Of a DNA stretch of 25,604 bases, positions 631 to 25,604 are shown in pieces. This stretch comes from Hysterium pulicare CBS 123377 (taxonomy: Eukaryota; Ascomycota; Dothideomycetes; Hysteriales; Hysteriaceae). Made by a program: the position numbers and the translations under genes. A model generated the notes under the pieces. The model saw only the letters and a list, made by a program, of their open reading frames with translations, did not search any database and was not told the DNA's origin. Every line of letters starts with the position of its first letter. Position 1 is the stretch's first letter. The stretch spans positions 1-25,604 of the forward strand of contig AJFK01000267.1 of the NCBI GenBank assembly GCA_000467715.1, written 5' to 3'.

Positions 631-1809
631 ATGGACCCCACTGCTCACGTGCAAAACAACTTCCTCGCCTTTCGATCTTCATGTGACCGCTGTCGTTATA
701 TGAAGTTGAAATGCCCTTCCAACGGCAATGACACCAACGAGCCCTGTGAACGGTGCTCAAAGGCGAAATTGCGTTGCACCTACAGCCGCCGCACTAGTTT
801 AAGAAAACGAACCGCTGCTGGGCAAGACAATGGCTTAGATGCCCCAGACGGTCGTGACGAGCATATGGCTGCGCCAGACATAACGATAACGGATCAAGGG
901 TCCGGGCAGAGCGACGAGAGCTCGACATCCATTGGAGTGATTGTCTCTGAGATCCCGTCTGAGCCTGTGGATGCCTTCTGTTTCTCCAATACCCTTGACG
1001 TACTATCATCTGACGAACTACTTTGGGCTACTGGATGGGACGACCCATCGACCTCTGCAACGTCTCCTGCCCTGTGGCCGAACCACACGCCAGCCTTTTC
1101 CGAACACGAGGCAACTCTCTCAGCCCAATGTACGCTCAACCTTGCAACTTTGGCCGTCGAACTGGGCGAGTGCCTGCAGATGCTTCGTGACGACATCCGG
1201 ACTCAACAATCCATCGATAATTATCCTATTGGCCACATTCGCCACCTCTCACAAGCCTTCGTCGCCTCGGCACAAAGCCCCTCCGCGCTCGACGTACCGA
1301 CGAGCTTGTTGCTCTTGAGCTGTTACGTGACGCTCCGCAAACTCTACATCAACGCCTTTTTCAAAATCAAAGACCACATCCTACTTGGAAACGACAACCA
1401 ACAGCAGATCTCCCATGATCCGAGAACCACGCGCTTGCGCGGCATGGATATGCTCAACGAGCGCTGCATCCGCAGCTACACCGCCTTCAACATCACCATA
1501 GACTTGCTCCACAACTGCGATGCGGCTCTGGGCCTCTGCACAGTCTGCCGACCTCCTGGACAGTCTGGTTCGCCGACTTCCATGACTTCAGCCGTACCAC
1601 ACTCGCAGGGCGTGCCTCCGGGCGACAACTTGGAAGCACCTATGGAACAATCCTCTTCCAGCAGCGCGTGCATCGCTTGTGCACTCCCAGCTAACTTTAG
1701 AATGGAGGCCGTGTCAATTTTCAACGCCATAACGGATCAAGAGCACGCTCTACACGAGGTCATTGCGATGCTGAGAGGTACACTGCGCCATCAAATGGGA
1801 CTTCTCTGA
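631..1809 (+). CDS. Zn2Cys6 (AflR-type) pathway-specific transcription factor
   Basis: Predicted nuclear DNA-binding regulator of the cluster, 392 aa and intronless. The binuclear zinc cluster is seen near the N-terminus: Cys18, Cys21, Cys28, Cys39, Cys42 and Cys49, spaced C-X2-C-X6-C-X10-C-X2-C-X6-C, followed by a basic stretch (residues 51-62). The rest is a poorly conserved Ser/Thr/Pro-rich region. The C-terminal segment (about 360-390) contains a QEHALHEVIAMLRGTL-like helix typical of AflR-family proteins in polyketide clusters. The length suits that family. ATG 631 is the first in frame and places the zinc cluster at residues 18-49, as expected. It converges with the FAD monooxygenase. 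That it activates the neighbouring genes is inferred from location and family. Confidence 0.9.
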   Translation: MDPTAHVQNNFLAFRSSCDRCRYMKLKCPSNGNDTNEPCERCSKAKLRCTYSRRTSLRKRTAAGQDNGLDAPDGRDEHMAAPDITITDQGSGQSDESSTSIGVIVSEIPSEPVDAFCFSNTLDVLSSDELLWATGWDDPSTSATSPALWPNHTPAFSEHEATLSAQCTLNLATLAVELGECLQMLRDDIRTQQSIDNYPIGHIRHLSQAFVASAQSPSALDVPTSLLLLSCYVTLRKLYINAFFKIKDHILLGNDNQQQISHDPRTTRLRGMDMLNERCIRSYTAFNITIDLLHNCDAALGLCTVCRPPGQSGSPTSMTSAVPHSQGVPPGDNLEAPMEQSSSSSACIACALPANFRMEAVSIFNAITDQEHALHEVIAMLRGTLRHQMGLL

Positions 1810-2339
1810 AGGATATTGAACCAAGCCTGGGAAAGCACAGGTGTTCACACCTTCGCCTTTTTCTGTTGCGCTCGGAGCTGACCGAAGTTAACCGGCCTTT
1901 GGTTAATCAATCCTTGTAAGGTTGATTAGTTGAAACTTGAAGCTGTGCCGGTTGATGTCTCACGGAGGATGGAACTAGTATGTTCCTGTTTTGCACTGCG
2001 TTGCCAGCCTGATTATTAGATTTGCATATAGAATGGCGCTGTTGGCATTTATCGATAAAATCATGAATTCGCACAAACTCTGCAAAAACATGCCAATATT
2101 TTCTTTGGTTTATAATTTGATAATAATCAAGAAATGTGGTTTTATCACAGATGCATGTCTGCGTAGTTATGCCCATTCCAACACCTAATAACTTTCTCTT
2201 TCAACACATATAATGAACAGGTATACGGCTAAATGCATTGTAGAGACGTCAAATAACCGCTGGTCATAAGAGCATAGGTTTGGTTACATAGTTAAAATGT
2301 ACACGTCCAAAACCTAAGTTCACACGAGTTCTGTTAAGT
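1810..2339. other. Convergent 3' intergenic region; no gene seen
   Basis: About 530 bp between the stops of the transcription factor (+) and the FAD monooxygenase (-). It becomes AT-rich after ~1970 and holds only short frames without recognisable protein. It should contain both polyadenylation regions. The only structure I see is the hairpin pair at 1887-1928. Confidence 0.6.
1887..1928. repeat. Two overlapping inverted repeats (3' hairpins)
   Basis: TTAACC (1888-1893) pairs with GGTTAA (1901-1906). Immediately after, TAATCAA (1904-1910) plus CCTT (1912-1915) pairs with AAGG (1918-1921) plus TTGATTA (1922-1928), leaving a single-base bulge and a 2-nt loop. The two stems share bases and so are alternatives. 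They lie about 80-120 bp past the transcription factor stop and could act in 3'-end formation. This may also be chance in AT-rich DNA. Confidence 0.4.
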
Positions 2340-4019
2340 CTACTTAAGCCATCTTGCTCTAGCTTCCTTGAGCTGCAACACAATATCAACGTGCTTGTCA
2401 TCCGTGGCCCAAGCAACTACCCCATCTGGCCTGGTCATCACCACCTGGAGTCCCAGTGTCTCTTTGGCATTGCTGTCAGTGTAGACAAAGCCTTCCAATC
2501 CCCCCAAAAACCTGGCAATGTCGCCGTTTTGACTAAAGTCGACGACCACCCATGTCCCGCCGGCCATCTTGTCCCCCATCCTCGTGCCATCAGCAAAGTC
2601 AAAGTCCGGCGAGCTCAGTCCAACCAGCCAGTGCTTGCAGCCTTCTCCCAGGTTGACACGAGGGTGGAACCAAATGAATTTGCTTGCGAACAGTGTTGAG
2701 CCATCCCTTGTCGCAATCATCTGCTTCGCTAGATTGTAAATTGCATCTCCATGCACGCCCGGCATGATGGCTGACGTGTGCGCTCTGATCATCTCCAGCA
2801 CTTCCGTCGCTATCGGCCTTCTCTCCTTGTCGTACGTATCCAACAACTCTTGATGGGCCAGGCCCTTGGCCACTGCCGCGACCTTCCACCCCAGATTCAT
2901 TGCATCTGCCAGGCCTAAATTCAGTCCTTGACCTCCTAGAGGCGAGTGGATATGCGCAGAATCCCCGGCCAGCAAGATCCGCCCGCGACGAAACTCAGTG
3001 ACCAATTTTGCGCGATCGGTGAATGAGCCACTTAGATGTAGCGTCTCAACCGTAAGCTCTTCGCGTCCTACCACACGTCTGAGTACGGCTTCAAAGCCTT
3101 CCCTCGTAACATCAGGACGTTGCGTATTCTTGCCATTGCCGTTGTTGGACACGCTGTCGTCAAGATCCAGGGCGAATGTCGCTGGAGGCCGAACTGCATA
3201 TGCGCCCTTTTTCGTGCGGTGAAAGCCAGGCGGTAGAAGCTCCTTTGATCTCGTGGAAAGGTCACAGTCTGCCATGTAGCCGGTCCAAGTCGCTTCATTG
3301 CCCTCCATAGTGAAGCCAGCGTGACGGCGGACGAAGCTGCGGCCACCATCTGCTCCAATCAGATAATCGGCTACATACGCAGTTCCTTCGGCTCCTTCGT
3401 TGCTGGCAATTGAGTGACCATTGCTGCCTTTACTTGTCGTCGTGGTGCCATTAGATAGAGCAGAGTTCGGGCCGGTCCAGACTTTGACGTTCGTCCCAGT
3501 GTCCTCGAAGCGAGTAACAGGGCAGTTAAAGAGGATCTCCACTCCAAGGTCTTTAGCACGTTGATAGAGGACTCCGACAAGCTGGCCCTGCTTTACAGCG
3601 CCACCGAAAGCTGATGGCCCGGGTAGGATATGTTTCCAGCGGCTCCAGTCGACATTGTTGGAATGGATAACGATGCCAGCAAAATGGCTTGCCACGGGGA
3701 AATCGCCAGGTTTCCGCTGCTGTATTGTTCCTTTGCGTTCCTCTTTGCCGCCGGCAAGTGACACCTCGCCTGGGGTAAGCTCGGTTTCAGTTGCGATAAC
3801 CTTGGACAGCAGACCTCGGCGATAGAACGTCTCCGCAGAAGGGTGATTGAGTAGTCGGAAGCCCAGCGCACCGTCTCGCCATGGATCTGCCAAGGTAGCA
3901 TTTTTCTCAAGCACAAGGGTCGAAACGTTTGCCAGAGCTAGCTCACAGGCGAGCAGGAGGCCGACGGGGCCGGCCCCAACTATGATGACTGCGTATTTGC
4001 GGGCGTCTTGGCGCGTCAT
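2340..4019 (-). CDS. FAD-dependent monooxygenase (class A, PheA/TfdB-like)
   Basis: Single-component flavoprotein hydroxylase, 559 aa, no intron, probably cytosolic. Motifs seen: the Rossmann GAGPVG at residues 15-20 with ribose-binding Glu38; the DG motif (IGADGGRSFVRR, 221-232), which contacts FAD and NAD(P)H; and the GD motif (GRILLAGDSAHIHSP, Asp353), which binds the FAD ribityl chain. The segment after it (LGGQGLNLGLADAMNLGWK) is typical of phenol-hydroxylase-like enzymes, and the C-terminus has the thioredoxin-like tail expected for that group. ATG 4019 places the FAD motif at the normal distance. It diverges from the MFS gene. Oxidative tailoring of the PKS-NRPS product (hydroxylation or epoxidation) is inferred; the substrate cannot be read from sequence. 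Confidence 0.9.
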   Translation of the reverse strand: MTRQDARKYAVIIVGAGPVGLLLACELALANVSTLVLEKNATLADPWRDGALGFRLLNHPSAETFYRRGLLSKVIATETELTPGEVSLAGGKEERKGTIQQRKPGDFPVASHFAGIVIHSNNVDWSRWKHILPGPSAFGGAVKQGQLVGVLYQRAKDLGVEILFNCPVTRFEDTGTNVKVWTGPNSALSNGTTTTSKGSNGHSIASNEGAEGTAYVADYLIGADGGRSFVRRHAGFTMEGNEATWTGYMADCDLSTRSKELLPPGFHRTKKGAYAVRPPATFALDLDDSVSNNGNGKNTQRPDVTREGFEAVLRRVVGREELTVETLHLSGSFTDRAKLVTEFRRGRILLAGDSAHIHSPLGGQGLNLGLADAMNLGWKVAAVAKGLAHQELLDTYDKERRPIATEVLEMIRAHTSAIMPGVHGDAIYNLAKQMIATRDGSTLFASKFIWFHPRVNLGEGCKHWLVGLSSPDFDFADGTRMGDKMAGGTWVVVDFSQNGDIARFLGGLEGFVYTDSNAKETLGLQVVMTRPDGVVAWATDDKHVDIVLQLKEARARWLK

Positions 4020-4307
4020 GATGCTTCTCTCTGCAAAAAGGTTTCTGCATAAAGGCTAATATCTGCGAGAACGAATGAGTCCAGGAGGGCATGTCTAAGA
4101 AAAGTAGGATCGGCTGTTGCCTGGAGGGACGAGATACTCCGAGGCAATCCGACTTACAGCGAAATTGCGTTATATAGGTGGTCCGAGTTTGTCTAAGGCG
4201 ATATTTTCCGACAAATCCCCAATACAAACGACATACTCCGTGGAGAATGATGCGCCTCCATTCCTAATTAACAAGACACTCTTTCAACGTCCTATTCCTC
4301 GGCGGAC
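4020..4307. promoter_or_regulatory. Bidirectional promoter, FAD monooxygenase / MFS exporter
   Basis: 288 bp between two divergent ATGs, so both promoters must overlap here. A TATATA lies near the middle (4171-4176). TCCG recurs at 4138, 4148, 4182, 4207 and 4237, and four of these extend to CCGA within 72 bp. CGG/CCG triplets are the half-sites usually bound by Zn2Cys6 proteins, so these are candidate sites for the cluster regulator. The assignment is inferred from motif and context only. Confidence 0.5.
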
Positions 4308-5764
4308 ATGGAAGACAGCGCCGCCAACAACGTGACCTGGGATGGCCCTGACGATCCCGAGAACCCTCGCAACTGGAGCCATGGCTTCAAGCTGGTCAAT
4401 GTCTTGCTCATTGGCCTGTCGCTCCTCTGCACGAATTTCGCGACGACCATGTTTGCGCCTGCCGCACCGCAGCTGGCCGATGAATTCAACGTTCATGATA
4501 GCATCCTCATCACTCTGACTGTCACCATTCCCGCTCTCGGTGGCGCGACCGGCCCGCTCCTGTTCGCCCCTGCCTCTGAGATCTTCGGCAGGGTGAGGAT
4601 CTACTGGTTATCCAATGTGTTGTTTCTCGCCTTCGCCGTTGGCCTTGCTCGCAGCACCGACATATCCATGTTTCTTGTCTTCCGCTTCTTGGACGGTGTG
4701 TGCTACGCGTCCTACTTGACCTGTAGCGCGGGAACCATCGCAGACCTCTTCGATCGCGACAATCGCGGTGCGGCTTCCGCCGTGCTTGCTCTGGCTCCCT
4801 TGTTAGGACCAATTCTGGGTCCGGTGGCAGGCGGTTTCGTAGCACAAGAATTGGGCTGGCGGTGGATCTTTTACATTGTGCTGATGATGGTAAGTCGGCG
4901 CGCCACCAACGTGGAGAATGCACAGGAGTGGGACCTGCTAATCACATCCATCGCTAGACCGGAGTCGTCACTGCAGCAGTCTTGCTCGTGATGCGCGAGT
5001 CGATGGAATCCATCCTGCTTGCGAGAAAAGCCGCGCGTCTGCGCAAATCGACTGGAAACCCCAACTTGCGGTCTGCTGTCGCTAGCAATCTACCAGCTCA
5101 TCAGCTCGTAGGACGTGCCTTCACCCGACCGATCAGAATGCTACTCTTCTCGCCAATAGTTCTTCTTCTGGGGCTTTATCTTGCCTTTGTCTACGGACTG
5201 GTCTTCCTCCTCCTTGCTACCTTCTCACAAGTCTTCGAGGGCACCTACGGCTTTGGTCAGGGCTTCGCAGGTCTTTCGTATCTGGGCTTGGGTCTGGGAA
5301 GCATCATTGGCACCCTTCTCTTCGCCAAGTTCAGCGATAGGCTTGCAAAGAAGCACAGCACGCCCGAACATCGCATGATCATGATGATGTTCGGAGGCCC
5401 GACTATTCCCGCGAGCCTGTTCTGGTATGGCTGGTCTGCTCAGTATCACGTGCACTGGATCGTACCCATCATCGGAACATCGTTCATCGGAATTGGTATC
5501 GTCTTTGTCACCGCTTCGGGACAGCTCTACATAATCGATACATTTGGATCTGAGGCGTCTGCTTCGGCTATGGCGGCCATTACGTTGGTGCGGAACAGTT
5601 CTGGGGCTTTCTTGCCTCTCGTTGCGGCGCCCTTGTACGCGAAGTTGGGCCTGGGCTGGGGCAACAGCGTTCTCGGATTCATATCCCTGACTTTCCTGCC
5701 CCTCGCCTTCCTCTTCTTCAAATTTGGTGGTTTGCTGCGGGAGAAGTATACTTTCAAGCCATAA
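4308..5764 (+). CDS. MFS drug:H+ antiporter (DHA1-type), cluster exporter
   Basis: Plasma-membrane major facilitator transporter, 462 aa from two exons (4308-4889 and 4958-5764). The N-terminus has the DPENPRNWSHGFKL signature common in fungal DHA1 transporters. Exon 1 carries TM1-6, including the antiporter motif C-like GPILGPVAGGF and GWRWIFY. Exon 2 starts TGVVTAAVLLVMRES, carries the basic central loop (LLARKAARLRKSTGNP) and then TM7-12, ending EKYTFKP. Splicing is required: exon 1 otherwise runs into unrelated residues and a stop at 4991. It shares its promoter with the FAD monooxygenase. Export of the cluster product, with possible self-protection, is inferred from location. Confidence 0.9.
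4890..4957 (+). other. Intron of the MFS transporter gene (68 nt)
   Basis: GTAAGT donor, GCTAAT branch-like element at 4937-4942 and TAG acceptor. Removal joins codons cleanly (phase 0) and continues the transmembrane sequence as FYIVLMM-TGVVTAAV. Confidence 0.9.
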
Positions 5765-6894: not shown

Positions 6895-8055
6895 CTACTC
6901 TGGCATCTCGACCTGTCCGGCCATTCCAAAGCCTTCAAAAATGTCCCCAGATCCCACTAGACCCCCTTTCACCGACACCACGAAAGCCGAGCTGCCAGTT
7001 GTGTCTGGCCCTGGCTTACTTGTAGGCATCTGCCACCATACTCGATCATGGCGTAGCTCGAAAGACCACTTCGCCTCAGACAAGAATTCGATTCGATATC
7101 CGACGTTCTTGTGCCGGAAGGTTGCTGGGACACCCTCCCCATCAAAAAACTTGTCCACGATTACGGCAGGGCCTGCCTTTGAATCTCCGAATGTATACCC
7201 ATCAGGTTTGTCGACCACTCTTTGAGGGCTGCAGACCAGTTTGCCGTCGCAATACAGCCTTGCAGAGGCAGTATGTTCGTAATTGTTCTCGGGTCGGCCA
7301 ACCAGCCGCATCACCTGCAGGACGTAGGGTCCAACCTTGGCTCTCACAAAGAGCGAGTCGGTCACGGCCTTGGTCCACGGTATCGATTCCCAAGAGCGCT
7401 CGAGTCCTCCGTATCCACCCTTGTCCGCAGAAATAAGCATGCGCTTAGGCTCCGTGGAGGGATCCGTAACGATCGCCACATCCAAATTGGCGCTTGCCAT
7501 GGCGACTGGCCTCATCCAGAATATTTCAGTGGCAACCTTAGCCTCATCTTCTGTTTTGGGAAGGCACGGATAGCCCATTGACTTGTGCGTCAGTGTGCCC
7601 ATGATGCGTCCCGGTACGTTGAACGTGACTTTAGAGATGGAGAGGTCTTCGTTCACCTCGAAACTAGCAGAGGGACCGTCCTCGCCATCATCCGCCGTCC
7701 GCCAGACGCCAGTCACGCGCCCTTGTCCCGGATTCAATCCTTCGACTGTGACCGTTGACATTGGAAGGATTAAATCGTGGCTCCAATTGGTTCCATCCTC
7801 CCAGCTTGCATTGATGATAACCCGAAATCCCGCCGGTGCCGCCATGCTGTCGCGCAAGAATGACACGGTAAAGGCGTCGCTACCATCTGGTGCCAAGGCG
7901 TCAAAAAGCCACACTTCGACAGCCGTCCTGGGGAATTTGTCGGCATATTTTGGATAAAGGTTGCCGCTGTTGGGAAAGAAATCCGTTTCTGGACCTGGCT
8001 CTGCAACGATCGAGCCGCTGGACACAAGCGACGAGGTCTGGTTTGCTGAGGGCAT
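6895..8055 (-). CDS. Diels-Alderase (Fsa2/CghA/MycB-type pericyclase)
   Basis: Predicted stereoselective intramolecular Diels-Alder cyclase, 386 aa, intronless, without cofactor. Family features seen: SGNLYPK at residues 30-36 followed by a W-L-F-D strand (49-52), matching SGNIFPK..ELWYFD in Fsa2-type enzymes; a central YVLQVMRL strand; and near the C-terminus RVWWQMPTSKPGPD (PTSKPGPD at 344-351), the signature before the last beta-strands of the second lipocalin-like barrel. The frame stays open upstream to 8124, but that codon is TTG. ATG 8055 is the first ATG and gives the family's usual length. It diverges from the trans-ER gene. Characterised relatives form decalins on PKS-NRPS polyenes; cytochalasan cyclases are related, so the ring type made here is inferred. 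Confidence 0.9.
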   Translation of the reverse strand: MPSANQTSSLVSSGSIVAEPGPETDFFPNSGNLYPKYADKFPRTAVEVWLFDALAPDGSDAFTVSFLRDSMAAPAGFRVIINASWEDGTNWSHDLILPMSTVTVEGLNPGQGRVTGVWRTADDGEDGPSASFEVNEDLSISKVTFNVPGRIMGTLTHKSMGYPCLPKTEDEAKVATEIFWMRPVAMASANLDVAIVTDPSTEPKRMLISADKGGYGGLERSWESIPWTKAVTDSLFVRAKVGPYVLQVMRLVGRPENNYEHTASARLYCDGKLVCSPQRVVDKPDGYTFGDSKAGPAVIVDKFFDGEGVPATFRHKNVGYRIEFLSEAKWSFELRHDRVWWQMPTSKPGPDTTGSSAFVVSVKGGLVGSGDIFEGFGMAGQVEMPE

Positions 8056-8299
8056 GACGAACGAGGAGCGAAACGAGAAAATTCGATATGTATTCGATGA
8101 GCGAGATAACTTTCGTTTGCCCAAGTTTTATTATGTTGCGCTGTCGGAGTAGGTCGGTATATTTAGGAGTCCCGTGCGATGACCGCTTGCGCGGAGATTT
8201 TCGGTCGGTCGCTGCACCGTTGCTGAGGTGCTTAAAGCAAAGAAGAGAAACTGAAAAGCTAAGACAAGTTGATCACGTATTACAAAGCATACTTGCACA
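8056..8299. promoter_or_regulatory. Bidirectional promoter, Diels-Alderase / trans-ER
   Basis: 244 bp between divergent ATGs. TATATTTA at 8158-8165 reads TAAATATA on the minus strand, 103 nt before the Diels-Alderase ATG, a sensible TATA position for that gene. TCGG (the complement of CCGA) occurs four times within 65 bp, at 8144, 8154, 8201 and 8205, the last two in direct tandem. The same core is clustered in the 4020-4307 promoter, suggesting a common Zn2Cys6 regulator. Confidence 0.5.
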
Positions 8300-9442
8300 A
8301 TGGGATCTGTCGACATGGTACAGACGGCGCTGGTTGGTGGGCCGAAGGATAGCATTGCTCTCTCACACACGGCACCGGTTCCTCCGGGTACGCTGGAAGA
8401 CGGCACGTTGGCGGTGGAAGTGATGGCAGTGTCGCTGAATCCTGTAGATACGAAGATGCTGGGCGGCTATCACACAGTTGGAGCTATTGCGGGGTGTGAA
8501 TATGCTGGTGTCGTTAAGGCGGTCGGCTCTGGGGTGACGGCGGAATGGAACATTGAGGTTGGCGACCGAGTCAGTGCTGCTATCATGGGCATGAATCCAC
8601 GGCGACCCAACATCGGAGCCTTCGCTCAATATTCCGTGGCACCGGCATACTGCGCTCTCAAGCTTCCGGACGATTTTTCTTTTGCACATGGTGCAGGCAT
8701 TGGCAATGCGTGGTACACGGTGCCATGGGCGCTTTTCCATACCCTGGGTCTCGCTCCTGGGCCACAGCTCCAGCCTCTCAGCGACTGGATCGAGTCATCA
8801 ACATCAAGCCCGGTCCTGGGATCCAAAGTCATACTCAACACTATCAAGCCGCAAAGTGTCTTGGTGAGTGGTGGCTCCAGCTCAACGGGGACTTGCGCCA
8901 TCCAACTCTTAAAGATTGCCGGCTTCAAAGTTATCGCCACAACGTCGGCACGCAACATGGCTCTGGTCAAATCTTTTGGCGCCGATGCCGCTTTTGATTA
9001 CTCGGACCCGAATTGCGCCAGCGACATTCGCGCTTACACCGCCAACGCGTTACGCTTCGCCATCGATTGCATTACCACACCTGAGACGACACAGCTGTGC
9101 TACAAAGCCTTGGGGAGGACTAGAGGACGCTACGTGTCGCTGGATCCATTTAGCGAGTCCATCGCCTCGACGCGCAAAATCGTGTCTGCCGGGTGGGTTT
9201 TAGGACCCGAGCTCTTGGGCGAGGAGATCGCCTGGCCAGCACCACATGGAAGAGACGCCAACCCCTTTGCCAAAGACTTTTGTGTCGTGTGGAACCAAAC
9301 GCTGCAACGATTGCTCGACCAGGGCCGGATCCGCACTCATCCTCAGCTGGTGCGTGACACCGGTCTTGAAGGTGCTTTGGGTGGCCTGGAGGAGATCCGA
9401 GCAAAACAAGTTTCCGGACAGAAGCTCATATTTACCTTGTGA
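8300..9442 (+). CDS. Trans-acting enoyl reductase (LovC/TenC-type MDR)
   Basis: NADPH-dependent medium-chain reductase, 380 aa, intronless, acting in trans on the ACP-bound enoyl chain of a PKS whose own ER is dead. Seen: the N-terminal GroES-like fold with NPVDTKM (Lys52, at the place of the conserved LovC lysine); GCEYAGVV and VGDRV; the dinucleotide loop VLVSGGSSSTG (187-197); and the long RFAIDCIT..GRYVSLDPF..WPAPHGR stretch that closely follows LovC. Zinc ligands are absent, as in this family. Length agrees with known members (about 360-390 aa). It lies directly upstream of the PKS-NRPS on the same strand, which itself has a degenerate ER. Programmed reduction of only some extension cycles is inferred. 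Confidence 0.93.
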   Translation: MGSVDMVQTALVGGPKDSIALSHTAPVPPGTLEDGTLAVEVMAVSLNPVDTKMLGGYHTVGAIAGCEYAGVVKAVGSGVTAEWNIEVGDRVSAAIMGMNPRRPNIGAFAQYSVAPAYCALKLPDDFSFAHGAGIGNAWYTVPWALFHTLGLAPGPQLQPLSDWIESSTSSPVLGSKVILNTIKPQSVLVSGGSSSTGTCAIQLLKIAGFKVIATTSARNMALVKSFGADAAFDYSDPNCASDIRAYTANALRFAIDCITTPETTQLCYKALGRTRGRYVSLDPFSESIASTRKIVSAGWVLGPELLGEEIAWPAPHGRDANPFAKDFCVVWNQTLQRLLDQGRIRTHPQLVRDTGLEGALGGLEEIRAKQVSGQKLIFTL

Positions 9443-10665
9443 CCAACTGCTTCTCCTATAAGCCTGGCCTTTATTACTGAAAAATAACTATCTTTCAATT
9501 GCAGCTCTCCTTTCCTCGCGTTCGCCTCTTTCCCTTGCGTTTGTAGAAGCTGTTTCTCAGTCCTTCGCCTTCTTTCTATTATAAACGCGGGCAGATCCTC
9601 ATCACATGGCGATTTTCCTACGTTTCAAGTACTACATCTGAATCACAGTGGTGATGTAGGAGCAGCTGATATGATGACTGCAGCGATGCCACATCATCGA
9701 GAGAGGGCGCGGGCATGGCCTGGAGCTCGTATGCAATGGAACATTCTGGTCATGAGATCTAGATCCAAGCGAAGAGGGCTTCGCAGTCCTTGGCAAGCAC
9801 TTGCCTTGATGGAAATTCATCCAGCGTAGACGGCGTGCCGCTGCAGTTGTAGTCTCAGATAGCCTATCAGGTCACATGCTAGGTACGCTTGCCTATCCGA
9901 GAGAATGCTGCAGATCACTGATGCAAGTCTGCTAAAACATCTTCACAGCTACACTGCTCTAATTCCAATACTGAAATCAATGTACAAATGGAAGAGAGCA
10001 TGCTGAAGCATGCGCTCAGCAACTGACTAGGACCTCGGACGAAATCCTATGACCAGCGTATCACAACGTTTGACATTCGGCTCTCGGTAATCAACAGTTA
10101 GAAGCCTTCTCTATCTCAATTTTGAATATTGAGAGGCAAAAGTCACTCATAATGGTTGGGAACGATTTTTTTTTTCAAGTTTCGCCTATAACAAACGGCT
10201 CGGCAGTTAATAACTGGTGATATTATATACTATGGGCTAGCATCTTCTCATAGAGCATCAAGATCTGACTGCAACCTAGCTTGAGAGTTCAAGGTAGACA
10301 CACCACCAAACGAGGCCAGAATTCATAAGCAGCCTTGCGCCTTGAGACTACACGTACAAAGACTTTTAAGGATAGACAGGTTCCTATATAACAGCAAAGA
10401 AGAAACGAAATGTTCCAGGATCAGCCAACGCGAAGCTATTTTTCAGCATGTATATCGCCATCCAGACCCTGATATGGGCATCAGGGGCCATCGATTCCTA
10501 TACCTGAGCAACACGCAAAACATCGGCGGTCTTCGGTGTACTAGAGAGCTCGGGGCGGGGAGCGGTGAACTTTTCCAGTGGCCGGTTTACAGCGACGGTT
10601 CATGTCAATAAGAGGTGAGTCTCACGAATCTTGTCCAGCATCTTAGAGATTTACAGCAATTCAAC
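9443..10665. promoter_or_regulatory. Intergenic region and long 5' region of the PKS-NRPS gene
   Basis: 1.2 kb between the trans-ER stop and the PKS-NRPS ATG, with no supported gene. It contains a T10 tract (10166-10175), a TATATA at 10224-10229 about 440 bp before the ATG, and TCGG cores at 10035, 10077, 10084 and 10200. A short upstream ORF starts at 10602. If the TATA is used, the mRNA leader is ~400 nt. GTGAGT at 10615 with TTACAG ending at 10656 could mark a 42-nt leader intron, which is shorter than usual. Confidence 0.5.
10602..10646 (+). other. Upstream ORF (14 codons) before the PKS-NRPS start
   Basis: ATG at 10602 opens a frame that stops with TAG at 10644-10646, 20 nt before the main ATG at 10666 and in a different frame. 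Both ATGs sit in the same local sequence, CATGTCAAT. It could reduce translation of the main frame if the leader is transcribed. It is real as sequence; function is inferred. Confidence 0.3.
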
Positions 10666-13600: not shown

Positions 13601-16600
13601 TGTCTGGTCCCCTTCCCCCCCCAAGATCGCTGTCAGACCTTCCTGCTTACCCTTTCGACCACACTCGCTCGTATGGTCAGCTTTCTCGGTACTCTGGCGG
13701 GCATCTTGTTCCTCTCGACGGGCCAAACCCTTTGCTCGGACGCAGACTTGTCGAGTCAGAGACAGCCGATCAAGTTTCATGGCGCAATGTTCTTTCTCCA
13801 AGCGAGAATAGTTGGTTGCAAGGCCATGCGTTACAAGGACAGACTGTCTTCCCAGCAATGGGTTATGTGGCCATGGCAGCCGAAGCAATCGTAGCCATTT
13901 GTCCCAATCGTCCTCTCGGCCTCATTGGCCTGCGAGATGTTGTTATTAACCGCGCTCTCGCATTCGAAGACGACCGAAGCAAGATGGAAACTAGGGTTGT
14001 AGTCACGATCGATAAGCTCACTGATGAATGTTTTCAAGGTCAATTGGTCTGCCACTCGGGACTGCCGCATAGCACAACACCATTTGTACGAAACTTCAGC
14101 GCGGAAATCTCTGCCACCTTGTATGAATCCCGCTCAGACACATTATCAGCCATCCGCGCGGACGAGATCAACCTTCACGACATCGATCCGTCACGCTTTT
14201 ATGACCAGTTCACTCGGCTAGGCTACAATTATAGCGCTCCTTTCACCGGCATTAACAGTCTCAAACGCAGAGGTGGATATGCCACTGGCAGTATTGAAGA
14301 TGTTTCCGGTGAAGGCTGGGAACACCAAATCCTCGTACATCCTGGATGGCTCGACTCTGCACTGCAAACAGCCCTTGCTGCGTATTCCTACCCTCACGAT
14401 AACCGCCTGTGGAGTTTGCACGTTCCTGTTGCGATTCGCTCCATCATAATCAATCCGTATTTCACAGCTCGAGGCGCTGGCGGAAGGCCAAAGAAATTCG
14501 AGTATCAAACCGTTGCTGCACAGGCTCCTTCGGTTCCTGTTCTTGCAGACATCGACGTGTTCGCTGGCGAGAGGTTTGACAAGCCATTTGTCCAGATCGA
14601 GTCTGTCGAAATCAAGCCGTTCGCTCAGGGCACCGCGGCAGACGATGTCACGCTTTTCACAGGCTTCGACTACCGCCTTGCATCTCCCGACGGTCCGGCC
14701 GCTGTGGCCGGTGAAAACTTCTACAACTCGGAGCGACTCCGGATGTTAGAGGTACTCGAGCGTGTGGGTTACTTCTACATCCGTCAAATGCACCAGACTT
14801 TGACGCCGGTGGAGAAGGCGAACGCTTTGCCGCACTACAAATATTTCCTGGAATTCGCCGAGCGAATCGTGTCCGACGTTTCCAAGGGCTTGTTGCCCAA
14901 TGTGCCTCCAGAAGCATCTAAAGACACTCGGGCTTACATTAAATCATTGACAGCTCAGTATCGAGAATCCGTCGATATCAGATTGCTCGAGGCTGCCGGC
15001 GACAATATCGTGGACGAAGTACGAAATTCGGGCAGCATTCTGCAACACCTTCTTGCAGACAATCTGCTGGACCAATTCTACGAAGAGTCTGTAGCGTTGA
15101 ATTATGCCAACGTACTGATAGGCCGTATTGTCGCTCAAATCGCCCATCGTCATCCAAACATGCACATATTCGAAGTTGGGGCTGGAACAGGGGGCGCCAC
15201 GAGCCAAATTCTTCCGGCACTGGGAAATGCTTTCTCAACATATACATATACTGACATCTCTGCGGGATTCTCACATCGTGTCCAGGACCGGTTCCGACCA
15301 TATGTGAATCGCATGAATTTTACAGTGTTCGACATGGAAAAACCTCCAGCTGAACAAGGAATTATCGAAAACACATACGACGTCGTTATTGCGTCCAATG
15401 TGCTACACGCCACAGGCAAGCTAGACGACACGATTGCTCATATTCGCCGCTTGCTACGCCCTGGCGGCTATCTTGTTGCGCTGGAAGTAATTTCCAACTA
15501 CTCTCTCGCCATTGATGCTGTCTTTGGTGCACTTCCAGGCTGGTGGGCAGGCGCGGAGGTCGAAAGCTGGCGACGAGATGGACCGGCCCTCACTCTAGAG
15601 CAGTGGACCACATTGACACGCAGACATGGCTTTAGCGGGGTGGACACACACACGCCCGTGTCGAATCCTTTGCAGGCGTTCTCCGTCTTTGCCTGTCAGG
15701 CTGTTGATCCCATCGTGTCTGGACTACGGGATCCTCTTACTGCTGGTGTTTCCTTGTCCTCGCAACATCTTGTTGTAGTAGGTGGTGTTAAACCCGCAGT
15801 CTTGGAACTTATGGAGGGAGCGGTGAAACTTGCTCGTTCCCACTTTGCAAATGTCATCCACCTGCCATCTCTTGAGGAACTCAACAATCACGGCCTGGCC
15901 GAAAGTTCTTCAGTCCTGTGTCTTACAGAGCTTGACGAACAGTTACTCGAACGTCGAAACGCCTCCAAATTTGACGCGCTGAAAGTTCTGTGGCAGAACG
16001 GACGCAACGTGTTATGGGTGACGCGGGGTGCAAGAGCAGAAAACCCGCACTCTGCAATGATGCTGGGCCTATGCCGCTCGGCACGCTTCGAATATCCCCA
16101 TCTAAATTTGCAATTTCTCGATTTCGATATCATGCCATCGGCCAAGTCCACTATGGAAGCCCTACTCCAGCTCGAACTCGCCGCGCAGCTGAAGACAGAA
16201 GGCCGCGAGGGCACTCTCTGGACTTTCGAACCGGAGCTACATGTTGTCGACGATCAGACACTAATTCCTCGCTTGTATCCAAATTCTTCAGCCAATGAAA
16301 GATACAACACCTCGCGGCGATTGGTACGGCACGACGTCAATCTCGACGAAACTACAGTCGGATTGGCCGCCAATGCAGATGAGAACACATTGGACGTCCA
16401 GGTCATGCCGCCATTGAGGCCGCAAATCCCATCTACTGGTTCAACAATATGTGTCAAGATTCAGTATTCGATGCTACAAGCTATCAAAGTGTCGGAAGGC
16501 TTCTTCTATCTTTGCGCAGCGAAGAATGTCCAGACGGGTGAGAGTGTCGTTGCATTAACGAACAAAGGAGTGGCTTCAACCATGGATATACCCATATCGT

Positions 16601-19600
16601 GGGTCAAAGTCATGTCAACTGCTCCCGACAGCTTGGTCATTAGCACGTTAGCGCTCCACTTGATCACGCAGAGCATCATCTCCAGCAATGCCACTGAGGA
16701 AGGTACTATCCTCATCCACGATGCTAGCGAGATACTTCGCAAAGCGATCAGCAAAGAAGCGACAGCTCGTGGAATCCAGGTCGCATTCACCACAAGCAGA
16801 AAACCGGCGGTGAAATCTAGCCGGGAGGGATTCGAGGTGTACTTGCACGAAAGTTTCCCACGCCGCTTGATTGAGAAGCTCATTCCGCGTGACGTAGTGG
16901 TGTTCCTGGACATGTCCACAGGCGACAATCCCTTGGGCGGCTTACTACGAGAGTCACTGCCTCGACACACCGTGATGCATACCACACCAGACTTCATTCG
17001 AGCTCACACCGACTCCTCACGAACAACGGCCGATGGGAATATCCAACAGATTCTGAAAGTAGCATGCCGGTCAGCGGCACGTCCAACCCCTGACTGTCTT
17101 CCTGTTGTATCATTGGCAGATATGGGGACATCCATGAAAGCGAATACAACACCAACCATTGTAGACTGGAAGAGCTCGTCAAATCTCACAGCAACAGTGC
17201 AACCCATCGATGCTGGGACTATTTTCCGCGACAATGGGACCTACTGGTTGCTAGGAATGACGGGTGACTTGGGAATATCCATCTGCCATTGGATGGTCCG
17301 TCACGGTGCCCGACACGTTGTCCTCAGTAGCCGGAACCCCAATGTACATCCAAGAAGTTTCGAGTCGCTCGAAGCCCTTGGGGCCAATATTCGAATCGTG
17401 AGCGTCGACATCAGCAATCGCAAGTCTTTGCATGATTGCCACAGCAAGCTCCAGGCAGATTTTCCACCTATCATTGGCGTCGCCAACGCCGCGATGGTTC
17501 TTGAGGATAGCCTGTTCGACGAAGTACAATACGCGTCTATCGAACGGGCCATGCTACCAAAAGTTGAGGGAAGCGCGTTCTTGGACCAGCTCTTCTACTC
17601 AACGCCGTTGGACTTTTTCATTTTATTCACATCGGTTGCCAATGTGGTGGGCACAAGTGGCCAGTCAACATACGTCATGGCCAATTGTTTTATGTCGGCC
17701 CTTGCCAAGCAGAGAAGAGATATCCGTGGTGTAGCCGGGTCTGACATTGCTGTGGGCTCGGTCCAAGGTTTGGGCTACCTCATGAGGGACAAGAAACTTG
17801 ACAGGGATTATTTCGTTCGTCGAGGCTATCGCAACCTTTCGGAGCAAGATCTCCACCAACTTTTTGCAGAGGCAATCTTGGCTGGACAGCCTGGACACCA
17901 GGGAAGCTCACAGGTCGTGAGCGGTATCCAGCCGTTCCGTGAGGCCCACGCCCAGCTTACAACCAATGCACAATTCCAGCATATGCGCCTGCGAGATGAC
18001 GAGCTGAACGATCGCGGTCTAGGCGATGGGAAAGGTGGTGCGGCGAGCGTTCAAGCTCGCCTTGCATCCGTCAAGTCGCAAGAAGAAGCTTCAGATGTCG
18101 TGCAGGACGCCTTTCTTGCTCGACTAAGATCGATTTTGATGATGCCCAAGACTGAAGTGATTGACCCACTGACGTCTTTGGTAGAGCTAGGGGCTGATTC
18201 CATCATGGCGGTCGACATCCGGGCTTGGTTCCTCAAGGAGTTGAACGTCGACATCCCAGTGCTCAAGATTCTCGGGCCGGGTGAAACGGTCGCTGACCTG
18301 GTGGCCGTGTCTGTTGCCAAGTTGGTACTAGACCTCGATCCGACTAAACTTGGGGACGAAAAGGAAGAAAACGACGTCCATGCCAAACCAGTCGCATCTT
18401 CACAGGCAAATGCTGAGCTTCAATTAGCGAACTACTCTACGTCTGAGTCGGGCAAGAGTGAAACGTCTAGTAGAACTTCCCCGAGCTCGTCCTCGTTGAC
18501 TACGGCATTAGAAACGCCTCTGGAGCCATCAGCAGAGGTTGCAGCGCGAAGACTCGAGCAGCAAGGGAAAGAAGACGAATGGAAATTGCGTCGAACAACC
18601 ATTGTCAACTCAGCCTCGGAGCGGATTGAGCCAATGACTCTGGGCCAGAAGCGATTTTGGTTCCTTAGCCATTACGTCCAAGACCCTACGACGTTCAATA
18701 TCACATACTTTGCCAAGATCCAAGGTCACATCCGCGTGAACGATTTGGCTCGAGCAGTTGATATTGTCGCTCAGAGGCACGAATCGCTCCGCACTCGCTT
18801 TTTCTGGTCGAATGATACAGCCAAGATGCCAATGCAAGGCATCCTGTCCAAGCCACTGCTTCAGTTGGAGCTGTCCACCATCCACCATACTGCACAAGCT
18901 CACCAAGCATATGAAGATATGCAGAGCTTCAATTGGGACTTTACCGACTGGTTGCCACTTCGTATACAACTTCTTTCGCTGTCGCCGACGGAACATTTCT
19001 GGATCATCGGAACTCACCATATCTCAATGGATGGTCTCAGCTTCAGTGTGCTCATGTTGGACATACACAAAGCCTACTCGGCATCAGGTCAATTGCCACC
19101 GCTGCCCGCAGGGTCCCAAATTCACGCTTTGGGTGCCCAACAGCGTCGTGCGCTGAAGAGTGGCAAGCTGCGCCCTGCATTAGATTATTATCGGAAGGCC
19201 CTCTCGACTGTCGACTTCACTAAGCCTATTGAGCTGTTCTCTTTCGCTAAGAGTCCAGTTAGATCTCCATTCTCTGACTATAGGACGCACGTCGCCAAGG
19301 TGCATCTGGACGCATCTACAACAGCAAAGCTAAAGCAACTCGCACGCCAGCAACGAGCGACCAGCTTCCATGCATATCTTGCCGCTTTTCAAACCATGGT
19401 GTTTCGTCTGCTCGACGAGAGCACGACCGATCAAATTGTCATAGGACTTTCGGACGCTAATCGTTTAGAGAAGTCGTCGATGGAGAGCGTTGGAAATTTG
19501 CTGAATCTTCTTCCCGTCAGCTTTCAACGCTCTCGGGACCAAAGCTTTGGGCAAGCAGTGCAAGATGCGAGGGATCGCGCTCATGCCGCCATAAAACATT

Positions 19601-22600
19601 CAGCTCTGCCGTTTGACGTGCTTCTCGACGAGCTCAGCATCCCTCGATCAGCTGCGTGGAATCCACTTTTTCAGATCTACATGGACTATCGCCTCATAGT
19701 CAAAGAGCAGGCGGAAAAGACTTGGATCGATTGTAAGATCGAAAATGAAACGTGGCGTACGGCTCGACATGGCTACGACGTCTTTGTTGAAGTTATAGAC
19801 AGGCCGGACGGTGCTACGATCGCGGTACATGTCCAGCAAGCGTTGTATACCGCAAAGGGAGCCGAGCTACTTGCCAGTACTTACGCGAACATCCTTAAGC
19901 AAGTCGCAGACGTTGGTCCTGATCTCAACACAAGTCGCGTGGAAAAGTGGAATCCAGACGATATTCGGACTGCCCTAGCTCTCAGTAAAGGTGACAAAGA
20001 GAATCTACCCTCGAATTGGTGACGTGTAGCTAACTATACCCCTCATCAGGTCCTTACATGGCACTGGAATGGCCTCCAACGACCACTGGCAAAGTCGACG
20101 AGATCATCCGCAGCAACGCCAACAATATCGCTTTGAGGGATGCTTACGGACAAACGCTCACATATCGAGCCATGGATGAGCTAATTGAGGCAATCGCAGC
20201 TTCTATTGAGAAATACTTGCCCAAGACTGGGGTGAAGCAAGTCGTTGTCGGCGTCTTTCAACTACCTTCCATCGACGTCATCTGCTCACTTCTCGCTATC
20301 TGGCGCCTAGGCGCGATCTACGTACCACTCGATCTCGTCAATGGTACTGCTCGATTGCAGTCAAATGTTCGAGCAACCCAGCCGGTTGTCATCCTCACAC
20401 ACCAGTTCACTAGTGAAAGAATTGCAGAGATCGACGAAACCGGTAAAATTGCGACCATAAATGTGTCGGACGTCGTGGAACTCGCCTTGACAGATCCAAG
20501 ACCAACAAGGGCTATTCCGCACCCAGACTCTACAGCGTATATCTTGTTCACCAGCGGATCCACGGGTGAACCCAAGGGTGTTGTTGTTCAACATTCAGGG
20601 CTGCGAGCTTACCTTGAAGCGCTGCATCGCACGTGGGACATTCGCAATCAGGCCAGCGTCGTTCTGCAGCAGTCTTCACTGAGTTTTGATTCCTCTATAC
20701 TTCAGATCTTTGCGGCACTCTGCACGGGTGGATGCCTGACTGTCGTACCCGCCGAAGCCCGCGGAGATCCGGTCGAGGTGGCCAACCAAATGGTTGAGCA
20801 CGGAGTGACCTTCACTCACGGCACGCCTTCCGAATACGACTTGTGGTTCCGCTTCGCTAGCCACAAACTGCGGCAATGCAAGACGTGGAAGTCGGCCTGG
20901 TATGTCGGTGAGCCAGCAGCCCTCTCACTTCTCCACGACTTCGGGCGCCTTGTCGACAGCATTCCTGACTTTCGCGTGTTCAATTGTTACGGCCCAACCG
21001 AGACGTCGATTGCTGGCGTCGAAGGTGAAGCAGACATACGCGATCCCGCACTTCAAGTTCCGATCCCTGGCCGCCCGTTGCCCAACTATGGGTGCTACAT
21101 CGTTGACGAGGACTTGAAGCCTCAACCTATTGGGGTTCTTGGTGAGATCCTATTCGCCGGCTTAGGAGTCGCGGATAATAGTTATCTTAATCGCCCAGAC
21201 CTCACACTGAGAGCGTTTCCCAAAGACCATCTTAGTGCACCTGATCAGATTGGTTGGAACAAAGTATATCGTACGGGCGACCGAGGGCGACTTGACGAGC
21301 ATGGCAATATTACAGTTCATGGCAGAATCGCTGGTGACACCGAAGTCAAGTTGGGAGGTTTCAGGGTCGAGCTGACGGAAATCGAACGCGCCATAGTTGA
21401 AGAAGCAGATGGGGTACTGAGGAACGCCATTGTCACAATTCGTCGAGATGACGAGCACGGACAATTGCTCGTGGCCCATGTCCTCTTCGAAGACACTGCT
21501 CATGTCTCAAACGCGACACCAACCGAGCTCATTGATGGTCTCATGGCAAAGTTACGTCTTCGGCTGCCTCCTTACATGTGTCCGGCAACAATCATTGTGG
21601 TCGAAAACATGCCACTTAATTCTCATGGGAAATTAGATCGCAAAAAAGTGCAGGCGCTACCACTTTCACACATGGGCTCTCTGCCGGCTCCGCAGCTAGG
21701 CGATTTGACCCCGACCGAGCAACGGCTTGTTCAATTGTGGAAGTCATTACTGCCCTCTTGGGCTTTCACGGCTGATGTGCACTATGGCACAGACTTCTTC
21801 CACTCGGGTGGCAACTCCCTGCTGCTCGTGAAGCTTCAGGCGCTTATCAGAAAAGAGTTCAACAACGCACCTCGACTGAGCCTGTTGATGAGTTCTCCCG
21901 CACTGGGTCTCATGGCATCGCTCATCGACGCTGACGTGGACAAGGTCGACTGGGACGCAGAGATTGATGTACAACTTGGGAATGACCCCAGTATGCCAAC
22001 CGAGAGGCCACTGAAGGACGCCGATGACAGATTGGCCATCGTACTTACTGGAAGCACTGGATCCTTGGGTCGGCGAATTCTTCAAGAGCTCGTGTCAGAT
22101 CCTCGAGTCAAGACGATTTTCTGTCCAGTGCGCGTGGTCAAAGGCCGCGATCTACAGAATCTGTTTTCGTTCAAAAGCGACAAGATCCAAGTCATAGAAG
22201 CTGAATTACCGTCTCTGCCACCGAACGAAATTCTGTTCGAGGCTGACTGCATCTTGCATTGCGCGGAAGACCGAAACTTCTGGGACGGCTACAATGCTCT
22301 TCGACCCATTAACGTTGACGCTGCAAAAGCGCTGGCGCATGTTACTGTTCAGACCGGTGCGGCCCTGCATGTACTTAGCTCGGGTGCTGTTGCAGCATAT
22401 GAAGACGAAGATGAGGCTCTATTGCCCCGCCCTTCTCCTAAGGCTGGCTACGTCTCAACCAAATGGGTGATGGAAAGATACCTCAAACGCATCGCACGCC
22501 AGGCTGGAGTACCCATCACGGCTCAACGACCAACACAAACCCGCTTGAGCGAGAGACAGCCGGAGAACGACACACAGTGCGAGGCTGCTGTGGCCCAAGA

Positions 22601-22976
22601 CATGGTCTTAATTTCGAGACAACTGGGTTACCGACCAGACTTTACCAATTTGAGCGGTACAATCGACGTCGCACGCTTACAGGAGATTGTAGTTGCCATA
22701 GCACAATCGGTCACCTCCCGGAACGGTTCAAAAAATGCTTCCATGACTGTGATAGATCACCCAGGCTCAGCGCGAATTCTCATTGAAGGCCTGGCCTCAC
22801 GCACCAATGCGCTGCTGCAGCATGACGAAAATCAATCTGTCGCAGAGCTGCCTGCAAAGTCCGTGTTGAAGTGGCTTAGGGACGCGAAACATACTGGGCT
22901 ATTCGAGTGGTTCTTTACCGCGCAGGACTTGACAATGGAAGACGAAAATGGGAATCGGGTGGTCACAAAGCGTTGA
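10666..22976 (+). CDS. Hybrid PKS-NRPS (KS-AT-DH-MT-psiER-KR-ACP-C-A-T-R)
   Basis: Backbone synthase of the cluster: a highly reducing iterative PKS fused to one NRPS module, 4005 aa. Six exons: 10666-11003, 11063-11376, 11431-11866, 11926-12131, 12194-19990 and 20050-22976; their summed length is divisible by three. Four introns break the KS and one lies in the C-A linker. ATG 10666 is the first ATG in frame and puts EPIAIIG at residue 12, as usual for fungal KS starts. Catalytic residues of KS, AT, DH, MT, KR, ACP, C, A, T and R can all be placed; only ER is degenerate, matching the separate trans-ER gene. The product is predicted to be a C-methylated reduced polyketide amide-linked to one amino acid, released by R. 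Size and order match fungal PKS-NRPSs of the decalin, tetramate and cytochalasan pathways. Confidence 0.95.
11004..11062 (+). other. Intron 1 of the PKS-NRPS gene (59 nt)
   Basis: GTACTA donor, TCTAAT branch-like element at 11046 and CAG acceptor. Joining gives [16 protein letters not shown], restoring the KS sequence; unspliced it hits a stop at 11038-11040. Confidence 0.88.
11377..11430 (+). other. Intron 2 of the PKS-NRPS gene (54 nt)
   Basis: GTACTT donor, CTGAT branch-like element and CAG acceptor. Joining gives [18 protein letters not shown], the expected KS segment; unspliced it stops at 11397-11399. Confidence 0.88.
11867..11925 (+). other. Intron 3 of the PKS-NRPS gene (59 nt)
   Basis: GTAAGT donor, GCTGAT branch-like element near 11901 and TAG acceptor. 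Joining gives [16 protein letters not shown], which creates the third KS catalytic motif. Confidence 0.92.
12132..12193 (+). other. Intron 4 of the PKS-NRPS gene (62 nt)
   Basis: GTGAGT donor, GCTAAC branch point at 12177-12182 and AAG acceptor. Joining gives [17 protein letters not shown], the canonical KS end. Confidence 0.92.
12550..13560 (+). other. AT domain (malonyl-CoA acyltransferase)
   Basis: Begins [14 protein letters not shown] at residue 551. The nucleophile Ser646 lies in [14 protein letters not shown] and the C-terminal [11 protein letters not shown] motif is present. Fungal HR-PKS ATs load malonyl-CoA; that substrate is family knowledge, not read from the sequence. Confidence 0.93.
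13717..14631 (+). other. DH domain (dehydratase)
   Basis: Double-hotdog dehydratase with GPNPLLG at the start, His976 in [10 protein letters not shown] (HxxxGxxxxP) and Asp1152 in DSALQ. Both catalytic residues are intact, so it should be active and supply the double bonds needed for a later cycloaddition. Confidence 0.92.
14731..15705 (+). other. MT domain (SAM-dependent C-methyltransferase)
   Basis: SAM-binding motif [10 protein letters not shown] begins at residue 1425, followed by a YTDISAGF strand and [12 protein letters not shown], a complete class I methyltransferase core. The intact glycine-rich loop suggests an active alpha-methylating domain. Confidence 0.9.
15706..17235 (+). other. 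Degenerate ER (psiER) with structural psiKR region
   Basis: About 510 residues between MT and KR. The position is that of the ER in full HR-PKSs, but I find no glycine-rich NADPH loop of the GxGxxG type and no strong MDR motifs. Loss of cis-ER activity is the normal state in PKS-NRPSs that use a LovC-like partner, which is encoded at 8300-9442. Confidence 0.8.
17236..17910 (+). other. KR domain (ketoreductase)
   Basis: NADPH loop LLGMTGDLG starts near residue 2117. Catalytic residues Lys2221, Ser2245 (TSVANVVG) and Tyr2258 with Asn2262 (STYVMAN) are all present. It should be active. Confidence 0.92.
18100..18330 (+). other. ACP domain
   Basis: Phosphopantetheine attachment site Ser2434 in [12 protein letters not shown], within a helical ~75-residue segment. 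It is followed by a Ser/Thr-rich linker (about 18331-18618), which probably lets the ACP reach both the PKS domains and the downstream C domain. Confidence 0.93.
18619..19938 (+). other. C domain (condensation)
   Basis: Starts [16 protein letters not shown]. The catalytic HHISMDG motif lies at residues 2706-2712 with the second His at 2707. It forms the amide between the ACP-bound polyketide and the T-bound amino acid. Confidence 0.92.
19991..20049 (+). other. Intron 5 of the PKS-NRPS gene, in the C-A linker (59 nt)
   Basis: GTGACA donor after AAAG, GCTAAC branch point at 20029-20034 and CAG acceptor. Removing 59 nt shifts the frame as needed and joins ALALSKG to [14 protein letters not shown], a normal linker into an A domain. 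Unspliced, the frame meets TGA at 20020-20022. An alternative donor GTAAAG at 19985 (65 nt) also keeps the frame but drops Lys-Gly. A donor at 20019 would give only 31 nt and the wrong frame. Confidence 0.85.
20070..21665 (+). other. A domain (amino-acid adenylation)
   Basis: Core motifs in order: A3 [14 protein letters not shown] from residue 3194, A5 [12 protein letters not shown]7 VYRTGDRG, A8 [11 protein letters not shown] and A10 [10 protein letters not shown] with catalytic Lys3558. Aligning by eye to the PheA specificity positions gives D-S-L-G-W-V-C-I-A-K. I do not recognise this code, so the amino acid is left open. Confidence 0.92.
21708..21940 (+). other. T domain (peptidyl carrier)
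   Basis: Phosphopantetheine site Ser3620 in [15 protein letters not shown], in the normal place between A and R. Confidence 0.92.
22026..22976 (+). other. R domain (terminal thioester reductase)
   Basis: Extended SDR domain. NADPH loop TGSTGSLG at residues 3697-3704, Ser3807/Ser3808 in [10 protein letters not shown], and Tyr3831 with Lys3835 in GYVSTKW. In Dieckmann-type R* domains of tetramate synthases the catalytic Tyr is typically lost; here the whole triad is present, so reductive release to an aldehyde is favoured. This prediction rests on motifs only. Confidence 0.88.
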
Positions 22977-25343: not shown

Positions 25344-25604
25344 ATATTGAATATTGGGTGTAATTTTTTAGATATAGGATAATAGACTCTTCTACTACGA
25401 GTATATCTTTCCTATCTACTATCTAAAAAATCTTAGTTCTATTTTATATAAGCATACAACTGCGTGGTTGAGTACCTGTGGTGCGATCAGCCACGTCAAC
25501 CTGTTGCAATCGATCGGATCCGAGCGCGACCGAGGTTGCAATACTAATGTTGAGGTGCACGTCAGCCCATTTGCTACGAAGGAGCTCGTATTTAGTGTTG
25601 CATA
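25344..25604. other. Trailing intergenic sequence, AT-rich then mixed
   Basis: The kinesin 3' flank is strongly AT-rich to about 25450 and then returns to mixed composition. No gene can be assigned. A 12-bp inverted repeat lies at 25363-25431. Confidence 0.5.
25363..25431. repeat. 12-bp perfect inverted repeat, 45-bp spacer
   Basis: ATTTTTTAGATA (25363-25374) is the exact reverse complement of TATCTAAAAAAT (25420-25431). It begins 20 bp after the kinesin stop. It could be a 3'-end hairpin or the ends of a tiny non-autonomous element; no target-site duplication is evident by eye. Confidence 0.45.

Follow-up and report, generated by a model that had tools for sequence, protein, structure and literature searches.

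Genes of the Hysterium pulicare locus

Contig AJFK01000267.1 of Hysterium pulicare CBS 123377 (assembly GCA_000467715.1), whose full 25,604 bases form the window analyzed here, carries six genes with unbroken reading frames at positions 631-22976. Together these genes probably constitute a regulated cluster for a decalin-bearing tetramic acid of the Sch210972 and equisetin kind. They encode a hybrid polyketide synthase-nonribosomal peptide synthetase (PKS-NRPS), a trans-acting enoyl reductase (trans-ER), a lipocalin-type Diels-Alderase (DA), a class A flavin monooxygenase (FMO), a major facilitator superfamily (MFS) transporter and a Zn2Cys6 transcription factor. Pfam backs the assignment of each, in agreement with the gene set listed in a first-pass annotation made from the sequence alone. 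Gene models with introns, together with the Pfam families, fit a filamentous fungus. Since the window is the entire contig and its left edge lies 630 bases before the regulator, the completeness of the cluster is unproven.

The PKS-NRPS gene (10666..22976, forward strand) was modelled with six exons (10666-11003, 11063-11376, 11431-11866, 11926-12131, 12194-19984 and 20050-22976) encoding about 4003 residues in the order KS-AT-DH-CMeT-(inactive ER)-KR-ACP-C-A-T-R/DKC. The last splice donor may be at 19985 or 19991, a choice that shifts the length by two residues; the length given previously is 4005 residues. Pfam recovered AT, DH, C-methyltransferase, KR, ACP, C, A, T and a terminal NAD_binding_4 domain, and the KS was found separately. 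Motifs were seen for KS, AT, DH, MT, KR, ACP, C, A and T in a search with 17 patterns, three of which used the window's own string as read by eye. More specifically for the internal enoyl reductase (ER), no nucleotide motif of the G(G/A)xG type lies between MT and KR, and no Pfam ER family was matched in 12196-19983 at E<=0.001 or in the in-frame stretch 16300-17200 (approximately residues 1801-2100) at E<=1. The internal ER is therefore judged to be degenerate, as had been claimed.

In the PDB, the part of the synthetase encoded at 12196-19983 aligns over nearly its full length with both LovB (1220 bits) and PsoA (1141 bits), and the product of the final exon with the A-T-R end of PsoA (419 bits). 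The adenylation pocket, read by eye with GrsA numbering as approximately D-S-L-S-W-V-C-I-A-K, allows no amino acid to be assigned. The trans-ER gene (8300..9442, forward strand; 380 residues; Pfam ADH_N and ADH_zinc_N) is of the LovC type first proposed for it, its product matching LovC with 241 bits over residues 8-378. With the full KS-to-R order, an inactive ER and a LovC-type gene alongside, the system has the features of a highly reducing PKS-NRPS served by a trans-ER. A second PKS-NRPS is present elsewhere in the assembly searched (37.2 Mb in 596 contigs); it lies on contig C495 at about 36.8-49.2 kb, has a KS and is 35% identical over the NRPS part, and frames near it match cytochrome P450, MFS, fungal rhodopsin and phospholipase A2.

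Diels-Alderase, flavin monooxygenase and promoter repeats

The DA gene (6895..8055, reverse strand) encodes 386 residues with the domains DA_N (206 bits) and DA_C (179 bits), which together with its relation to CghA, Fsa2 and Phm7 identify a lipocalin-type (type II) Diels-Alderase. In the PDB the protein matches CghA with 408 bits, Fsa2 with 218 and 7dmo (Phm7) with 213. Identity over aligned columns is 52.7% to CghA (192 of 364), 35.6% to Phm7 (130 of 365) and only 32.6% to Fsa2 (115 of 353). The protein is thus CghA-like; the first-pass annotation had called it Fsa2/CghA/MycB-like. The comparison set consisted of three PDB homologues (four distinct sequences), all of tetramic-acid pathways, and included no II-beta sequences. 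A type II-alpha Diels-Alderase would mark the equisetin clade (Ib-C); within this set the H. pulicare enzyme lies nearest to CghA.

PMC9055775 discusses eight residues of CghA, of which the H. pulicare protein retains six (S65, N82, W183, W235, M257 and V391), and Ser occupies the positions of both CghA A242 and CghA N364. Mutational loss of activity or substrate contact is described for Ser65, Asn82, Trp183, Trp235 and Asn364 of CghA, with W183 and W235 sandwiching the decalin (PMC9055775); four of these five are conserved here, Asn364 being replaced by Ser. The A242S substitution is one of three changes that shift CghA towards the exo product (PMC9055775), and the cis-forming SdtD bears it as well (PMC12947280). 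However, Fsa2 also has Ser at this position and its product is a trans-decalin. For this reason decalin stereochemistry is not predictable from A242S, and a cis-decalin predicted from that residue alone was rejected. It is conceivable, if doubtful, that Ser at both sites of this CghA-lineage enzyme steers the decalin to an uncommon stereochemistry, such as cis or exo, and that the FMO then oxidizes the product to a decalin pyrrolidinone with an undescribed oxidation pattern. Elsewhere in the genome, the single-frame C108 protein (L012:4594-5820) combines DA_N and AsqO_C domains and adjoins a GH35 beta-galactosidase. It was rejected as a second CghA-like Diels-Alderase, being 23% identical over 287 columns; it has no PDB relative at E<=0.01, and no KS match is listed on its contig.

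The FMO gene (2340..4019, reverse strand; 559 residues) encodes FAD_binding_3 (188 bits) and the ring-hydroxylase C-terminal domain Rng_hyd_C (35 bits), with the flavin motifs GAGPVG, GADG and AGDSAH, in keeping with its earlier placement in class A. Of its 40 PDB matches, the two highest-scoring are an entry for a rifampin/pentachlorophenol monooxygenase (161 bits) and PgaE (156 bits). As judged from these sequences, such relatives, which are rifampicin-type and polyketide oxygenases, give the class of the enzyme and not its reaction. The best of 13 other places in the genome is 32% identical over residues 164-404, and by this comparison the FMO does not duplicate any other gene there. A single P450 haem consensus pattern found nothing in the six unspliced frames of the window, and a scan of the intergenic regions yielded 43 frames of at least 45 residues, of which ten of the twelve longest were run against Pfam and none exceeded any family cut-off. 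Within these searches the FMO is the sole oxidative tailoring enzyme found in the window, as the first-pass annotation had stated.

That annotation also called the tailoring set unusually minimal, a description which fails because PKS-NRPS, ER and DAase are the minimally required set for decalin pyrrolidinones according to a review (PMC9055775), and because the trichosetin cluster, as PMC5408200 describes it, consists of six genes with no oxygenase or FMO. The equisetin decalin reportedly undergoes no further functionalization (PMC7421883). On this comparison the small tailoring set is not unusual. Pyranonigrin clusters have an FMO as a key enzyme (PMC7421883), and therefore finding one next to a fungal PKS-NRPS has precedent. 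The pairing of an FMO with a CghA-like Diels-Alderase may be less common; no such pairing appeared in the titles and abstract openings of a literature search, which is hardly evidence of absence.

The MFS gene (4308..5764, forward strand), the exporter gene of the first-pass annotation, encodes 462 residues with an MFS_1 match of 157 bits and has a single intron, preferably at 4890-4957, with further in-frame splice options. The regulator gene (631..1809, forward strand; 392 residues, one exon) matches only Zn_clus (24.3 bits); no AflR-family domain was found in its product at E<=1, and the AflR-type label once given to it is not upheld.

A direct repeat, TCGG-N6-TCGG, occurs five times in exact form in the window, and three of the copies lie in the promoters of the biosynthetic genes. 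One (4139..4152, reverse strand) is in the divergent FMO/MFS promoter, with one-mismatch copies 10 bases away on both sides; another (8144..8157, forward strand) is in the divergent DA/trans-ER promoter and is followed, 10 bases downstream, by a one-mismatch copy; and the third (10523..10536, forward strand) is upstream of the PKS-NRPS, 129 bases ahead of its start codon. Dinucleotide shuffles (2000 trials each) held the repeat in 0.9% of trials for the FMO/MFS promoter (288 bp), 0.65% for the DA/ER promoter (244 bp) and 1.65% for the 1223-bp region upstream of the PKS-NRPS. The broader form WCGG-N6-TCGG has 1554 occurrences in the 37.2 Mb assembly, from which about 0.07 would be expected in the 1755 bp of promoter against three seen, and three copies of TCGG-N6-TCGG occurred in 103,680 bases from other loci. 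With at most one mismatch allowed, 31 matches were counted in the window where 19.4 would be expected, and none of 100 shuffles reached 31. Binding of WCGG-N6-TCGG by MlcR was sought as a precedent in the literature, including passages of PMC10609478 and PMC7763326, but did not emerge there and was set aside. The shared repeats provide moderate, post hoc support for a single predicted regulon that includes the FMO.

To the right of the cluster lies a short kinesin-motor gene (23867-25344, forward strand; about 451 residues, three exons), which probably marks the cluster edge. Its top PDB matches are kinesin-13 KIF2C (128 bits), and its next match in the genome (43% over residues 119-285) is a gene judged by eye to be kinesin-8-like. 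Since the genome contains no second gene closely resembling it, a role as a duplicated self-resistance target was rejected. A TCGG-N6-TCGG copy ends 163 bases ahead of the start of this gene. Near the opposite end of the contig, before the regulator, positions 233-375 hold two 49-base direct repeats that are 94% alike and 94 bases apart, and positions 1-630 match only themselves in the genome. A search of the assembly with the Rfam 5.8S ribosomal RNA model (RF00002; 39 of 1289 first-look candidates scored) gave no match, and ribosomal DNA may therefore be missing from the assembly.

Relation to characterized clusters

Characterized clusters were compared at the protein level through PDB entries only, the best Diels-Alderase identity being that to CghA, and the remaining likenesses are of gene content. 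That the product may be undescribed, as the first-pass annotation suggested, is possible. The Sch210972 cluster (cgh) of Chaetomium globosum shares a PKS-NRPS and a trans-ER with the H. pulicare locus, and its CghA, the only one of its proteins compared, is the closest PDB relative of the DA. It differs in having the CghB aldolase, which was not found in the window, and the window differs in having an FMO. CghB, CghC and CghG are together required to form the linear Sch210972 precursor (PMC11101550). The equisetin and trichosetin clusters of Fusarium (eqx, fsa) share the PKS-NRPS, DA, trans-ER, Zn2Cys6 regulator and MFS gene (PMC5408200), but they have two regulators where the window has one, equisetin has an N-methyltransferase, and Fsa2 is the more distant relative noted above.

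The compact macrophasetin cluster (mps) of Macrophomina phaseolina has a CghG-like PKS-NRPS, a DA that was modelled on CghA, a trans-ER and a transporter, and is likened here by gene content; it carries one P450 instead of an FMO, and two regulators (PMC9701702). The HB-35018 cluster (sdt) of Aspergillus terreus shares the PKS-NRPS, the trans-ER and a lipocalin DA with A242S, namely SdtD. The ATR, SDR, P450 and acetolactate-synthase resistance genes that PMC12947280 describes for it were not found in the window.

Probable pathway and its alternatives

Decalin-type PKS-NRPS pathways have this set of genes, in line with the decalin- or cyclohexene-containing, amino-acid-capped polyketide expected in the first-pass annotation. 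In the pathway proposed, the PKS, whose own ER is dead, would build a C-methylated polyene chain with help from the trans-ER, and the NRPS module would attach an amino acid to it. The terminal domain would most likely free the chain by Dieckmann cyclization to give a 3-acyl tetramic acid, and the CghA-like Diels-Alderase would turn the triene into a decalin. The FMO would insert oxygen, the MFS protein would carry the product out, and the Zn2Cys6 protein would activate the genes via the TCGG-N6-TCGG repeats. The sequence itself establishes the genes with their domains and motifs, the dead ER, the likeness to CghA and the repeats in common; how the chain is released, the sequence of reactions, the stereochemistry, the amino acid, what the FMO does, whether this regulator binds the repeats and what the product is are inferred.

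The main point of doubt is release, and here the terminal domain (21987..22973, forward strand) gives a divided signal. It carries the nucleotide motif TGSTGSLG and a Tyr-x-x-x-Lys motif (GYVSTKW), and in the PDB it matches only PsoA (67 bits) and MxaA (33 bits). The Dieckmann enzyme CpaS has Leu in place of the Tyr (PMC3202784), whereas ACE1, thought to be reductive, has a triad resembling that of reducing domains (PMC5667575). Taken alone, these motifs point to reductive release, and because the domain retains them the core structure is uncertain. If the domain were a true reductase, it would release an aldehyde, and a Knoevenagel condensation would then form a pyrrolinone ahead of the Diels-Alder reaction, following the logic of oxaleimide, myceliothermophin and UCS1025A. 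Such a route would agree with PsoA as the top PDB match, the pseurotin clade being among those with pyrrolinone-derived products (PMC7421883), and with Ser at the CghA Asn364 position of the DA. Against it, the NAD_binding_4 score of the domain is 56.7 bits, below the 99.3 bits of the second PKS-NRPS of the genome, and the PDB Diels-Alderases, of which CghA is the closest to the DA, all belong to tetramic-acid pathways. An analysis of 884 hybrid clusters describes DKC domains as having no specific residue and uses an alpha/beta-hydrolase gene ("Knoevenagelase") as the discriminator, absent from tetramic-acid clades and conserved in seven pyrrolinone clades (PMC7421883). No such hydrolase was found in the six modelled genes or the ten scanned intergenic frames, with the flank beyond the contig unseen. 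Because of this absence and the CghA-like Diels-Alderase, Dieckmann release to a tetramic acid appears quite likely within the proposed pathway, and reductive release appears unlikely.

Several further observations weigh against the assignment to a decalin tetramate cluster. The release domain, in keeping two residues of the triad (Tyr and Lys) as well as the nucleotide motif, resembles ACE1 and not CpaS, and the residue that in CghA binds the tetramate carbonyl, Asn364, is the one replaced by Ser. The DA could be nearer to the pyrrolinone-acting MycB, PoxQ or CcsF, which lie outside the PDB comparison. The Sch210972-pathway aldolase was not found in the window; together with a transaminase it characterizes the Sch210972 clade (Ib-B of Minami 2020), and neither was present in the modelled genes or the ten frames, with the possibility that they lie beyond the contig. 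As to the regulon, TCGG-N6-TCGG was chosen by eye after inspection of the promoters, with 39 CGG half-site patterns screened, and it is not in the 630 bases preceding the regulator. Two of the copies in the window (23690 and 25520) fall outside the cluster, and WCGG-N6-TCGG, with 1554 occurrences genome-wide, is rarer than the reversed control motif, with 2266.

A separate question is whether the FMO belongs to the pathway. The product would otherwise be an unoxidized decalin tetramate like trichosetin, which needs no oxygenase in the account of PMC5408200, and the relatives of the FMO leave its reaction unreadable. However, the gene sits between the regulator and the transporter, its promoter shared with the MFS gene holds the repeat of the other two biosynthetic promoters, and its closest other match in the genome is just 32% identical, so that an FMO outside the pathway has a rather low probability. 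A macrocyclic cytochalasan-like product, with the DA as an isoindolone-forming enzyme, is very improbable: cytochalasan clusters also have a PKS-NRPS, an ER and a DAase, and gene content alone does not separate them from decalin clusters (PMC9055775), but the DA is close to decalin-forming CghA and retains W183 and W235 (cytochalasan Diels-Alderases being outside the comparison), and window searches found neither a hydrolase nor a P450 haem motif.

Thus, the H. pulicare locus appears to represent a known type of pathway and opens no new kind of system. Decalin tetramates are a broad bioactive group of fungal products, and Diels-Alderases with changed pockets help in learning how stereochemistry is controlled by the fold. 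The decalin tetramate cluster proposed here would offer a natural variant at two studied positions of the CghA pocket, together with a testable candidate regulatory repeat.

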